Positions 1,869 through 5,810 are shown, numbered from the stretch's first letter. The stretch: 54,592 bases of DNA from Bacillota bacterium (GCA_007122335.1 SKTZ01000064.1:1-54592), one strand, 5' to 3'. The notes: generated from the sequence alone by a model not told the origin. Numbers and translations are program-made.

Positions 1869-2039
1869 CTATTCGGCGCTGATCGCCTCTACGGGACAGG
1901 CGTCCACACAGGCCTCGCAATCAATACAGGTTTCCGGATCGATATGGTACTTTTCCTCGCCCTCACTGATCGCATCAACTGGACATTCGTCTACACATGC
2001 ACCACAAAGGATGCACTCGTCAGAAATTACGTGGGTCAA
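1869..2039 (-). CDS. 2x[4Fe-4S] ferredoxin, 56 aa, TTG start
   Basis: Clostridial-type bacterial ferredoxin that carries low-potential electrons in the cytoplasm. Two Cys motifs are visible: CILCGACVDECP (residues 9-20) and CIDCEACVDACP (38-49), each CxxCxxCxxxCP, so two cubane clusters are expected. The start is TTG at 2037-2039, preceded by GGGAGGTGAGG; no ATG or GTG gives a complete protein with a better site. The length (56 aa) is typical. It lies 72 nt downstream of the YvlD-like gene on the same strand and is closed by a strong terminator. Its partner is unknown; the iron-sulfur enzymes of the purine island (PreT/PreA-like, molybdenum hydroxylases) are possible but unlinked. Confidence 0.93.
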   Translation of the reverse strand: MTHVISDECILCGACVDECPVDAISEGEEKYHIDPETCIDCEACVDACPVEAISAE

Positions 2040-2096
2040 GACCTCACCTCCCTGTATATTCTCCCCTTAAAATAATATAAATAAAGGCAAATTACC

Positions 2097-2110
2097 GTAA
2101 TCTAGATTAC
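2097..2110. repeat. Perfect 14-bp palindrome upstream of the ferredoxin
   Basis: GTAATCTAGATTAC is self-complementary over all 14 bases. It sits between the YvlD-like stop (2112) and the ferredoxin start (2039). No T run follows, so it is not an obvious terminator; it may be an operator. Its function is unknown. Confidence 0.4.
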
Positions 2111-2111
2111 A

Positions 2112-2483
2112 CTATCTCCTGTACTCTTTTCGATCATAGACCAGGCCGCTGATTATTCCACCGAAAATTGCCATTAATACTGCAGCCCAGACTGCAGGCC
2201 AGAAACCTGCAACGTAAAAACCTCCAACTAATCGCCCGGTAAGCATGATCATCAGGGCATTAACCACAAAGGTAAATAAACCAAGAGTTAAAATGTTTAA
2301 CGGTAAAGAAACGATTATCAGAACCGGCCTTATAATTGCATTCGCCAGGCCCAGAACAAGCCCTGCAGCCACAACCGCCCAGAACCCGTTAATTTGAAGC
2401 CCTCCCAAAAGACCCGCAACAATAAATAATAAAACGGCGTTAAGAATCCAGCGGAATAGAAAACTCTTACGATCCCAGAACAT
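2112..2483 (-). CDS. YvlD-like membrane protein (phage holin 4_2 family, PF04020)
   Basis: Integral membrane protein of 123 aa with four hydrophobic segments. A basic cap (MFWDRKSFLFRW) precedes the first. The middle carries the family pattern GLANAIIRPVLIIVSLPLN, followed by two more helices and a short basic tail. B. subtilis YvlD belongs to this family and is encoded with YvlB, a DUF4097 protein; the same pairing is seen here. The start at 2483 is preceded by GAGGAGGG; an in-frame start further up would overlap the lipoprotein gene. It is probably the last membrane component of the DUF2089/DUF4097 operon. No phage context exists, so a holin role is unlikely. Confidence 0.85.
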   Translation of the reverse strand: MFWDRKSFLFRWILNAVLLFIVAGLLGGLQINGFWAVVAAGLVLGLANAIIRPVLIIVSLPLNILTLGLFTFVVNALMIMLTGRLVGGFYVAGFWPAVWAAVLMAIFGGIISGLVYDRKEYRR

Positions 2484-2502
2484 CGGAAACCCTCCTCTCT
2501 TA

Positions 2503-3396
2503 TTATCTCTCCTTAACCTCAATATTGCCGTTAGAAGTGCTGAGGTCAATTTTAACCTGCACGGGCATATTGGAAAAATCCTGAGTCTGGATTAAACCAT
2601 CCCGCAGGTTGATCACCCGGGACAGATTGCTATGATTAAAAGTTCCATTGGACGTTTGAGCCCTGATTTCAAATCCCGTATTTCTATCCCGGGGCAAAGT
2701 CAGGCTGATATTTCCGTTGGAAGTTCTAGCCAGCATTTCCGGCCGGTCAGATAAAAACTCCGGTTCCAAAACCATGCGAGAATTGGAGGTTCGAAGCTCA
2801 AATACTCTTGCTGCTCCTTCCAGATTAACACTTCCATTCGAAGTTTCCAGCTGAAGCCTGTCTCCAAAAATACCCGAAGTTCGAAGGGAACCATTGGAAG
2901 TGACCCCGTTTAAATAATCAAAATTAATATTGGTCAGGTTCAGGCTGCCGTTAGAAGCCTGCAGGCGAACCTCTCCCAGTTCCAATTCTTCCAGGGTAAT
3001 ACTCCCGTTAGAAGTTCTTACAGTTAAATCATAATAAAGATCTCGGGGAACTACGGCAACTATCCGGGCACTGATTCTTGAATCATCAACACCTATTCTG
3101 AGCAAACCGGTTTGATTTTCGACTACAACATTTTCCTCTGCTACTCTTTCTGCTTCAGACCGGGTTACAGTCCGAACCCGCATTTCCATTTCCACCTTAA
3201 AATCTGATCCCTCAACAGGTTTAACTGTTACCGAACCATTGCGGCTGAAAAAGTCCAGTTCCGCCCATTGGGCCGGGGTTGCAACCAGTTCCCCGGTTAT
3301 TTCCTCCCTTAAAACATAGCCATTGTCATAACAACCTCCGAGGGAGACAGTAAGCACTAAAAACAAAAAAATTAGAGGCAAAATTTTTCTTTTCAT
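2503..3396 (-). CDS. DUF4097 beta-repeat lipoprotein
   Basis: 297 aa. The N-terminus is a lipoprotein signal: KRK, hydrophobic core, then lipobox LGGC with Cys at about 22, so it should be anchored outside the membrane. The rest is a DUF4097 (YvlB/adhesin-like) parallel-beta repeat in which the motif [RQEVS]TSNGxhxh recurs about every 20 residues (for example RTSNGSITL, ETSNGSVNL, RTSNGNISL, STSNGNIEV). One copy is degenerate (RTSNSRMVL). The molecular role of the family is not established. It lies between the larger cytoplasmic DUF4097 protein and the YvlD-like membrane protein, suggesting an inside-outside pair. The repeats make the DNA look internally repetitive on both strands. Confidence 0.85.
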   Translation of the reverse strand: MKRKILPLIFLFLVLTVSLGGCYDNGYVLREEITGELVATPAQWAELDFFSRNGSVTVKPVEGSDFKVEMEMRVRTVTRSEAERVAEENVVVENQTGLLRIGVDDSRISARIVAVVPRDLYYDLTVRTSNGSITLEELELGEVRLQASNGSLNLTNINFDYLNGVTSNGSLRTSGIFGDRLQLETSNGSVNLEGAARVFELRTSNSRMVLEPEFLSDRPEMLARTSNGNISLTLPRDRNTGFEIRAQTSNGTFNHSNLSRVINLRDGLIQTQDFSNMPVQVKIDLSTSNGNIEVKER

Positions 3397-3419
3397 TTTT
3401 CTCTCCTTCTTTTTAACTA

Positions 3420-4547
3420 CTAGCCCAGGTAAATGCTTCCCATGGATGTCTGAGCTTCAATCTCAACTTTAATCCTTTTCTCCTGATAACCACGGGTTTT
3501 CCCAACTGCTTTCTTCCTGGAGTAGCTTTCCTGTTTTTCACTGTATTCGATTTCTGGAAGTTCGATATTTAAACTACCCATGGAGGTGCTGGCCTCCAGG
3601 CTGTATCCAATATCTTCTCCCCGGGGCAGGTGGAGTTTGATCCGTCCGTTTGAAGTATCGGCTTTTATTTCCCCATCAGCTTTAAATTTTGGTTCAATAG
3701 TAATGCTTCCATTGGAGGTATCTCCATTGAAAAACTGGCCTTCCCCCTGGATATAGATGCTTCCATTAGAGGTATCTGCAATAAATTCATCACCCTTAAC
3801 ATTTTTCATCTCTATTCGGCCATTAGAGGTATCAGCCCGGAAAATTTTCCCGGACATATCCCGGAAAACAATTCTGCCGTTGGAAGTATCAGCCTCAACC
3901 TTGTCGGCCTGGAGTCCGGAGATTTCAACCCGGCCATTGCTGGTATCCAGATTCAGATTATAAAGATGTTTTTTAGGCAGGCTGAGCCGAACATTGGCGA
4001 CAATTTCTCTCTCTGTTACCCGGAAAGAAAGGCGGTTACTTTCTTTCTGGATTTCCATTCCCCGGCTTTTTTTATTTTGCGCTTTTTCTTCATTTTCTGC
4101 TCGCACCCGGGAATTGATTTCCAGTTCAAACTGGTCTCCTATAGATTCAGTTATTTCAATATTCCCATTTCGGGTATCCAGGTCAATTTCAACCTTATCC
4201 CCGGTAAAAGATCCTGTTTCCCTGTCGGTAAAGTTATATCCTCCCCCCACAACACCAGTGGAAAAAGAATCGAAAATACTCTTCAGGAATGACCCCAGGC
4301 CTTCCGTTTCCTTTTCAATTTCGGTTCTTCCTTTCTGCAGCCCATCCCTGGCGTCAGAAATGCCTTTTTCCATTCCATCCTTTAATCCCTGCAGACCTTT
4401 TTTAAAGTCCCGGGACCAGTCTTCTTCAGCCAATTCCTCGCTCCTGGCATAAAGGGCCTCCAGTAATTCATTGGCCTCTTCAAGGGTAATTTTCCCCTCG
4501 TCCAGCATTTTAAGAATCATCAATTTTTCATCCTGCTTGGAACTCAT
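3420..4547 (-). CDS. Cytoplasmic DUF4097 protein with N-terminal SHOCT-like helix pair (YvlB-like)
   Basis: 375 aa without signal peptide or membrane segment. The N-terminal 35 residues form a SHOCT-like module (ILKMLDEGKITLEEANELL). A charged coiled-coil-prone stretch follows (to about residue 100), then a DUF4097 beta repeat with DTSNGRxxh recurring about every 20 residues, ending in two STSMGSLxI-type copies. The architecture matches B. subtilis YvlB. The start at 4547 follows AGGGGGGAG; the longer in-frame reading to 4625 lacks a site and overlaps the next gene. The SHOCT module is shared with the DUF2089 protein and the 5261 gene, implying that these proteins interact or respond to the same signal. 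Biochemical function is unknown. Confidence 0.88.
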   Translation of the reverse strand: MSSKQDEKLMILKMLDEGKITLEEANELLEALYARSEELAEEDWSRDFKKGLQGLKDGMEKGISDARDGLQKGRTEIEKETEGLGSFLKSIFDSFSTGVVGGGYNFTDRETGSFTGDKVEIDLDTRNGNIEITESIGDQFELEINSRVRAENEEKAQNKKSRGMEIQKESNRLSFRVTEREIVANVRLSLPKKHLYNLNLDTSNGRVEISGLQADKVEADTSNGRIVFRDMSGKIFRADTSNGRIEMKNVKGDEFIADTSNGSIYIQGEGQFFNGDTSNGSITIEPKFKADGEIKADTSNGRIKLHLPRGEDIGYSLEASTSMGSLNIELPEIEYSEKQESYSRKKAVGKTRGYQEKRIKVEIEAQTSMGSIYLG

Positions 4548-4558
4548 TTTTCTCCCCC

Positions 4559-4888
4559 CTAAATAAGGCGAATTTCCATAAAAAAATCCTCGTCCCTGAT
4601 CCTGACCAGAACCAGGGAACCGCAAAATCTCAGTTCGGTAAAAAACCAGTGGGGCATTTTCAAAATCCGCAGTATTTCCCGGGATTTAAGTTCGAAAGGT
4701 AATTTCCTGTTAATTTTAGCCTGGATTTTTGTGTTGGAAGTTAACCTGATTACCCAGTACAAAATCCAGCAGATTGCTTCAACAAAATCCTGGGCAAGAG
4801 AAAGAGGAATGGGTATGGAAAACCTCCCCCTTCCCTTCTTAAAACTTATGAGGCAAAATGAATTGTACCTCCAGGGAATACCAGCCAT
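4559..4888 (-). CDS. Short paralogue of the YvlB-associated domain, lacking SHOCT
   Basis: 109 aa hypothetical protein. Its core (FSIPIPLSLAQDFVEAI, then LVLVRIRDEDFFMEIRLI at the C-terminus) aligns with the next gene (VNITLPLSLARVALKFV and LVDIKDGDDSVEIYIE). It is therefore a divergent copy of the same C-terminal domain without the SHOCT helices and without the acidic linker. The start at 4888 is chosen for the AGAGGGG 7 nt upstream; an ATG at 4909 is the alternative and would overlap the neighbour by 8 nt. It fits the operon spacing (11 nt to the next gene). Opposite-strand frames here look non-coding. Function unknown. Confidence 0.6.
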   Translation of the reverse strand: MAGIPWRYNSFCLISFKKGRGRFSIPIPLSLAQDFVEAICWILYWVIRLTSNTKIQAKINRKLPFELKSREILRILKMPHWFFTELRFCGSLVLVRIRDEDFFMEIRLI

Positions 4889-4901
4889 GAGTGCACCCCT
4901 C

Positions 4902-5261
4902 TTATTCAATATAAATTTCTACGCTATCGTCTCCATCCTTAATGTCAACCAGTTTTCCTTCCGGGAGCTCGTTGCTGACCGAACTTAAAAGGTCTTCAAT
5001 GTCGACCCCTTGTTCTTCCAGTTCTTTTTTTGCTTCAGCAGGAACAAACTTGAGGGCAACCCTCGCCAGGGAAAGAGGCAAAGTAATATTAACTTTTTCA
5101 GTTCCAGCCTCCCTGATTCGGACCTTTAAAAGACGCCGGGCTCTCTCGGGAACTCCCCTGGTTTCGCTTCTTTCCAGGGTATTTAAAAGATCGTCGGCTT
5201 CTTCGGGGCTGACTTTCCCCTCGGCCAGCATCTCCAGGATCCTTTTTCTTTCTTCACTCAT
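4902..5261 (-). CDS. SHOCT-like domain protein associated with DUF4097 operons
   Basis: 119 aa cytoplasmic protein. Residues 1-30 form the SHOCT-like helix pair (RILEMLAEGKVSPEEADDLL). After a linker comes a domain with pattern LLKVRIREA..KVNITLPLSLA, an acidic segment (ELEEQGVDIEDLL) and a C-terminal beta-rich LVDIKDGDDSVEIYIE. Proteins with this pair of domains are common next to DUF4097 genes in Bacillota; function is not established. ATG at 5261 follows GGAGGTG with 7-nt spacing; a GTG at 5270 lies inside that site and is not the start. It is the second gene of the operon, 23 nt after the DUF2089 gene. Confidence 0.85.
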   Translation of the reverse strand: MSEERKRILEMLAEGKVSPEEADDLLNTLERSETRGVPERARRLLKVRIREAGTEKVNITLPLSLARVALKFVPAEAKKELEEQGVDIEDLLSSVSNELPEGKLVDIKDGDDSVEIYIE

Positions 5262-5284
5262 TTTAAACACCTCCAGAATTTATT

Positions 5285-5662
5285 TTAAAGGTCTTTAAGC
5301 ATCTTAACAGCTTCTTTTGAAGTAATTTCGCCTTTGTTCAACATTTCCAGTATATCACGGCGCTTGGCACCGGTTTCATCCTCGGGAGCGGTTTGGACAT
5401 CATATCCCATTGCCTTGATTACATTATCCAGCTTGGAGCGGACGGTGGGATAGGATATTCCAAGTTCTCTCTCAACCTCTTTAATGTTCCCTCTTGATTT
5501 TATAAATACTTCCACGAAACGAAGCTGGTCTTTTCCCAGGCGGCAGAAACGGCATATCTCGAATTTTCCTTCTACTGCAGTCTGGCAATAGGGACACTCC
5601 AGTCGGGTAACGTTCATTCCTTCATTACAAACCGGACATTTTCCTACTATTGGATTGGCCAT
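5285..5662 (-). CDS. DUF2089 protein: zinc ribbon, HTH and SHOCT-like tail, probable local regulator
   Basis: 125 aa. The N-terminal zinc ribbon has CPVC and CPYC knuckles followed by CRFC. A sigma-70 region 4-like helix-turn-helix follows (NIKEVERELGISYPTVRSKL), and the C-terminus is a SHOCT-like pair (ILEMLNKGEITSKEAVKMLKDL) like those in the two downstream proteins. The architecture is that of DUF2089, a putative DNA-binding family. ATG at 5662 is favoured because GGAGG lies 9 nt upstream; a second ATG at 5668 is too close to the site. It is the first gene after a near-perfect promoter containing an inverted repeat, which it may bind itself (inference). Confidence 0.85.
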   Translation of the reverse strand: MANPIVGKCPVCNEGMNVTRLECPYCQTAVEGKFEICRFCRLGKDQLRFVEVFIKSRGNIKEVERELGISYPTVRSKLDNVIKAMGYDVQTAPEDETGAKRRDILEMLNKGEITSKEAVKMLKDL

Positions 5663-5722
5663 TTTCATCCCCCTCCTTCCATTCTTAATTATTTTAAGGA
5701 ATATTTTAATTTTCTTAATATA

Positions 5723-5751
5723 ATTATAGGGTCCCGTAAGGACCCTGTCAA
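5723..5751 (-). promoter_or_regulatory. Consensus promoter with palindromic spacer for the DUF2089/DUF4097 operon
   Basis: Read on minus: exact TTGACA (5746-5751), a 17-nt spacer (5729-5745), exact TATAAT (5723-5728). The spacer is GGGTCC-TTACG-GGACCC, a 6-bp inverted repeat centred between the two hexamers. A perfect promoter with an occupied spacer suggests tight repression or a MerR-like twisting activator. No T run follows the hairpin on either strand at terminator distance, so a uvrC terminator is less likely. The DUF2089 start is about 60 nt downstream of the -10. Confidence 0.85.
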
Positions 5752-5810
5752 GAGTTTTTTTAAATTTTTTAATATTTATATTAAAAAATTGCATTTATTT
5801 TATAATTTTA

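Follow-up and report, generated by a model that had tools for sequence, protein, structure and literature searches.

A predicted TTAA-N5-TTAA operator and a conserved SHOCT partner at DUF2089 operons of Bacillota suggest an autorepressed envelope-stress system

The DUF2089 regulator heading a six-gene operon in the window (the whole stretch of DNA analysed here, 54,592 nucleotides of a Bacillota bacterium, GCA_007122335.1 SKTZ01000064.1:1-54592) is probably the autorepressor of an envelope- or antimicrobial-stress operon, relieved through SHOCT contacts with membrane-side partners; we give this reading a probability of about 0.6. The dyad TTAA-N5-TTAA is strongly supported, by comparison of promoters, as an operator at DUF2089 promoters, and DUF2089 is regularly followed by a SHOCT gene. 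DUF2089 was called (E<=0.001) in 158 of 398 sampled Bacillota genomes, or about 40%. With a defined predicted operator, this family of predicted stress regulators opens to direct assays of binding, to reporter work and to prediction of its regulon, and the operator sites link Toastrack and SHOCT proteins to antimicrobial efflux.

The six genes are co-directional on the minus strand (2112-5662), separated by intergenic gaps of 11-23 bp, with uvrC as the neighbour on the upstream side and a ferredoxin gene on the downstream side. The host draft genome belongs to the Halanaerobiales, its nearest named records being Halobacteroidaceae and Halanaerobiales MAGs. Pfam supplies domain names throughout, save for the whole of gene 3 and one half of gene 2:

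5285..5662, minus strand: gene 1, DUF2089 regulator, 125 aa (Pfam, AlphaFold2 model, invariant residues)
4902..5261, minus strand: gene 2, 119-aa protein with an N-terminal SHOCT module and a C-terminal domain, SMALLC (Pfam/NCBIfam, locus profiles, AlphaFold2)
4559..4888, minus strand: gene 3, 109-aa protein with a gene-2-type C-terminal domain and without SHOCT (hhalign to the gene-2 profile)
3420..4547, minus strand: gene 4, 375-aa protein with SHOCT (PF22746, 35.6 bits) and Toastrack (DUF4097; PF13349, 61.3 bits), without a signal peptide
2503..3396, minus strand: gene 5, 297-aa Toastrack protein (PF13349, 61.0 bits) that begins with a signal peptide and has a lipobox-like SLGGC (sequence reading)
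2112..2483, minus strand: gene 6, 123-aa YvlD-like membrane protein (PF04020, 110.9 bits; cut-off 28.8)

Co-directional genes, short gaps, a promoter and domain matches bear out the six-gene operon proposed in a preliminary description of this DNA. Its view of the second Toastrack protein as a lipoprotein agrees with the signal peptide and lipobox-like motif read in gene 5, and its YvlD-type assignment of the last gene with the PF04020 score and five hydrophobic stretches of gene 6. A third Toastrack gene is present in the same genome (contig C101:9081-9581).

Gene 1 comprises a zinc ribbon (residues 9-40), a helix-turn-helix domain (HTH, 42-87) and a C-terminal SHOCT helix pair (100-125). It can be assigned to the DUF2089 regulators with its HTH (PF09862, 88.8 bits) and zinc ribbon (PF22747, 50.7 bits), both above the Pfam cut-offs, and with the four cysteines (C9, C12, C23, C26) that are invariant across 48 sequences, as is the motif RGNIKExE..SYxTV. 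The C-terminal helix pair is visible in its AlphaFold2 model (pLDDT 83), and a Foldseek search with this model returned generic HTH matches only.

The promoter, the operator dyads and the regulon were missing from the earlier reading. The following elements lie upstream of gene 1:

5746..5751, minus strand: -35 hexamer TTGACA, part of a promoter matching the sigma-70 consensus at 12/12 positions with a 17-bp spacer
5723..5728, minus strand: -10 hexamer TATAAT of the same promoter
5760..5772, unstranded: predicted operator dyad O1, TTAA-N5-TTAA, its centre lying 15 bp before the first base of the -35 box
5706..5718, unstranded: predicted operator dyad O2, TTAA-N5-TTAA, covering the expected transcription start
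5685..5697, unstranded: predicted operator dyad O3, set exactly 21 bp away from O2 and past the transcription start
5728..5746, unstranded: GC-rich inverted repeat filling the promoter spacer, with compensatory arm changes among congeners

The general tandem formed by O2 and O3 (5685-5718) is the single exact match in the 2.41-Mb genome. As to the inverted repeat, the arms of this spacer hairpin read AGGGTCC..GGACCCT or AGTCCCC..GGGGACT within the window's genus (loci L003-L007), with a G-U form in L005; in this genus the hairpin takes the place of the -35-overlapping operator half-site found elsewhere, and in the sister genus it is shifted over the -35 box. Its GGGTCC form was considered as a DUF2089 site and dropped, as the sequence varies within the family and moves over the -35 in the sister genus.

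The dyad was discovered by aligning the promoters of DUF2089 genes, with dinucleotide shuffles as the null. When spacings of 0-15 were compared, N5 was the most prominent, and the next, N8 and N9, join neighbouring dyads. Upstream of DUF2089, 30 of 70 non-redundant loci hold 41 TTAA-N5-TTAA sites against 4.0+-2.0 expected (z 18), 21 GC-richer loci hold 15 sites of the form TTRA-N5-TYAA against 0.5 expected (z 19.5), and 18 of 24 validation loci outside the discovery set hold 33 sites against 1.7 expected (z 23). The density of dyads is 3.66 per kb upstream of DUF2089 and 0.25 per kb in the other intergenic DNA of the same loci. Of 49 pairs of neighbouring dyads, 33 are spaced by exactly 21 bp. 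Across 43 good promoters the dyad centres, counted from the first -35 base, fall mainly at +6 (21 sites), -15 (15, or 15 of 64 mapped sites, the register of O1) and -36 (7), so that the -35 hexamer TTGACA often doubles as the left half-site (aTTGACAatATTAAT). In those Clostridia whose operon begins with another gene, the ladder of dyads sits before that gene. DUF2089 genes thus appear to carry what an autorepressor should have, a conserved predicted operator at their own promoter that overlaps promoter elements. The dyad sites are AT-rich, and the canonical register is missing in some loci, notably the Bacillus group and several GC-rich ones; eight Bacillus-group DUF2089 promoters without the -35-locked register have another AT-rich stretch in common (TTTWATAAATAATTTTAAA), perhaps a variant operator.

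A blind scan, in which gene positions were ignored, covered the 398 Bacillota genomes with the 34-bp tandem TTRAN5TYAAN8TTGACAN3TYAA and used the reversed pattern as control. The tandem gave 27 matches and the reversed pattern 6. At least 16 of the 27 lie at DUF2089 operons: 14 are 99-387 bp before a DUF2089 gene (identified by HMM), one is inside a DUF2089 operon before the SHOCT gene, and one precedes a contig-truncated DUF2089; most of the remainder look like chance matches inside genes. Genomes with a match number 19 among the 158 having DUF2089 and 7 among the 240 others. Many DUF2089-bearing genomes yielded no match to this tight pattern. At the level of sequence, comparative genomics demonstrates a predicted operator, the register that it keeps, its confinement to DUF2089 operons and the linkage of DUF2089 to SHOCT genes.

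Beyond the DUF2089 operons, the candidate targets encode exporters of the MFS and ABC types, tiny peptides and small membrane proteins. One relative (G034), with seven predicted operons, has arrays of this form before a Mef-like MFS exporter, before three copies of a paired operon for tiny peptides and before two operons for membrane proteins. The tandem also precedes the Mef-like type in five other genomes (G052 to G056), another MFS gene in a Fermentithermobacillaceae genome, and, in G011, a DrrA-type ABC exporter (ATPase 331.7 bits, NCBIfam cut-off 312) and an MsbA-like pair. Exact or near matches stand at an MsbA-like exporter and at an operon for a tiny basic peptide in the genus of the window; these candidates are weaker, since the window's own genome matches only when one mismatch is allowed, and a one-mismatch scan of it gave 13 matches against 5 in the control, so that any extra targets there are tentative. 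Tiny charged proteins of 26-45 aa, some of which share an IENK-type motif, are encoded in twos or threes by operons with the same predicted operator in front, observed at nine loci and in the window's own genome (contig C124, L194 about 2010-2280, minus strand), and the proteins apparently form an undescribed family. The leaderless bacteriocin cluster of enterocin DD14 has an 89-aa 'DUF2089 family' protein beside its peptides (PMC7332713), possibly a second link of the family to antimicrobial peptides.

A SHOCT-like module had been described in three consecutive products; three products do carry it, but these are genes 1, 2 and 4, with gene 3 in between. PF22746 scores above its cut-off in genes 2 (42.1 bits) and 4 (35.6 bits), and the module of gene 1, at 20.9 bits under the cut-off of 27, is recovered by a locus-built profile (3e-11) and as the helix pair of the AlphaFold2 model. 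From 80 DUF2089 loci collected from GTDB genomes, which also supplied the profiles, 75 were usable for the following gene, and in 70 of these the gene immediately after DUF2089 carries SHOCT. All 65 complete loci (at least 3.5 kb of downstream sequence) have a SHOCT gene, 56 have the gene-2 C-terminal domain, 36 Toastrack and 12 YvlD, Toastrack being missing from 29 and YvlD from 53; in Bacillus loci, for example, DUF2089 is accompanied by a SHOCT protein of 129 aa and a gene-3 homologue of 89 aa, without Toastrack. Among 61 genomes around the window, DUF2089 occurs in 36 and DUF4097 in 19; 17 of the 19 also have DUF2089, and 19 of the 36 are without DUF4097. Because SHOCT is present in 65/65 loci, Toastrack in 36/65 and YvlD in 12/65, the conserved unit, as judged from these loci, is DUF2089 with a SHOCT partner, and the Toastrack (beta-solenoid) and membrane genes are accessories. 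By the yardstick of independent occurrence that the preliminary description set for itself, then, Toastrack and YvlD count as additions and DUF2089 with SHOCT as the core. From its proposed signalling chain we keep the tie between the regulator, SHOCT partners and an envelope-type operon, and set aside a general chain from lipoprotein through Toastrack to regulator: the earlier anatomy was mostly right, the grand six-gene chain claimed too much, and what is chiefly gained is the predicted operator.

Genes 2 and 3 have in common an unnamed domain of about 75 residues (window 4905-5126 and 4559-4888), widespread beside DUF2089. The C-terminal part of gene 2 is without a Pfam or NCBIfam family and gene 3 without a match in either, and gene 3 aligns to the profile of the gene-2 C-terminal domain with an hhalign probability of 88 (E 3e-6). 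Homologues of gene 3 comprise 31 ORFs, the 89-aa third gene of Bacillus among them, and in some Clostridia related genes are likewise found immediately before DUF2089. The AlphaFold2 model of gene 2 has pLDDT 88-96 in the SHOCT hairpin and 60-73 in the C-terminal part; with this model, weak in the C-terminal domain, Foldseek gave nothing in the PDB better than E 1.1. No credible relative in the PDB was found by a profile search with gene 2 or by a single-sequence search with gene 4.

In the mechanism that we favour, DUF2089 dimers would bind TTAA-N5-TTAA dyads every 21 bp over and around the operon promoter, a spacing of two helical turns that would place them on the same DNA face, the ladder suggesting cooperative dimers; bound DUF2089 would block RNA polymerase. 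We strongly infer both that DUF2089 itself binds the dyads and that it represses; the assignment of DNA binding to this protein comes from co-occurrence. Repression is favoured because a dyad overlaps the -35 box and the promoter matches the consensus. Activation, in which dyads with their centres some 50 and 71 bp before the start would recruit RNA polymerase under envelope stress, we hold to be unlikely: the 15 sites at -15 and 7 at -36 do lie upstream of the -35 box, at positions that activators also use, and the modelled HTH is similar to LuxR/GerE and sigma region 4 domains, but 21 sites overlap the -35 box itself, the window's 12/12 promoter should need no activator, and two of the window's dyads lie over and downstream of the start site. 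It is less likely still, and indeed improbable, that the dyads are UP elements or are bound by another, unlinked regulator, DUF2089 being merely a member of the regulon. AT-rich DNA just upstream of the -35 is typical of UP elements, and the binder of the dyads is named by inference; a fixed N5 spacing and an exact 21-bp ladder, however, are not UP-element features, the tandem turns up roughly once in a genome and does so at DUF2089 operons, and the tight pattern has 0 matches in 13 relatives (families f3 and f6) that are without DUF2089.

For release from repression, the likely input is the SHOCT tail of the regulator, a module common to partners without DNA-binding domains. The tail would pair with a partner SHOCT (gene 2 in most genomes, a SHOCT-Toastrack protein in many), and partners at the inner membrane face would report the state of the membrane; on membrane damage the regulator would leave the DNA and the operon would be derepressed, in some lineages together with efflux pumps and tiny-peptide operons having the same operator. 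The SHOCT-SHOCT contact, the membrane tethering and the inducing signal are thus presumed parts of the scheme. The signal is likely to be damage, antimicrobial or to the membrane, because Toastrack, LiaX and YvlB relatives act in cell-envelope antibiotic responses and because exporters are among the candidate targets. The SHOCT modules could instead be independent membrane anchors, with signalling through other surfaces such as the gene-2 C-terminal domain. Ravi et al. 2024 (PMC11237479) predict inner-leaflet anchoring of disparate domains; an obligate membrane anchor on a DNA-binding protein is less plausible than a common pairing module, and SHOCT neighbours are nearly universal beside DUF2089, so we consider anchoring the weaker reading, at somewhat under one chance in three. 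Returning to pairing and repression, a wider generalization is tentative, a little short of even odds: DUF2089 may be a broad Bacillota family of envelope-stress repressors with a common -35-locked TTAA-N5-TTAA 21-bp code, in which SHOCT-SHOCT exchange with membrane-associated partners takes the place of a kinase or anti-sigma factor and to which some lineages have added exporters and tiny-peptide operons.

Several known systems resemble this one. Classical PSP shares with the window the envelope-stress theme and a Toastrack partner, but membership fails because PspA/IM30 (PF04012) is absent from the window's own genome (97.8% complete; positive controls found). Bacillus subtilis yvlABCD and Listeria lmo2487-2484, the latter induced by the bacteriocin garvicin KS, likewise contain the SHOCT-Toastrack protein YvlB and YvlD; they have PspC, and control of yvl lies in part at least with sigma-W, whereas the window operon has a DUF2089 regulator of its own and no PspC match in Pfam. 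In Enterococcus LiaX an N-terminal domain is accompanied by a C-terminal one that restrains signalling, and LiaXYZ is under a two-component system (LiaFSR); genes 4 and 5 match LiaX at 91.9 and 72.3 bits, short of the 350-bit cut-off for membership (NF038025). Closest is the context in Ravi et al. 2024 (PMC11237479), who, in the portions available to us, recognize in DUF2089 a zinc ribbon, an HTH and a SHOCT-like part and place it with Toastrack in a four-gene context as a likely membrane-stress system, so that the earlier statement of functions unknown for every member is dated; the window has the same zinc ribbon-HTH-SHOCT DUF2089 beside Toastrack genes. In those portions we found no operator, regulon, gene-2/gene-3 domain or autoregulation, and in the literature on DUF2089, as far as it was accessible, no binding site and no demonstrated function. 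Because the DUF2089/Toastrack context is already described there, the system is not categorically new; its new part is the cis-code, the predicted operator.
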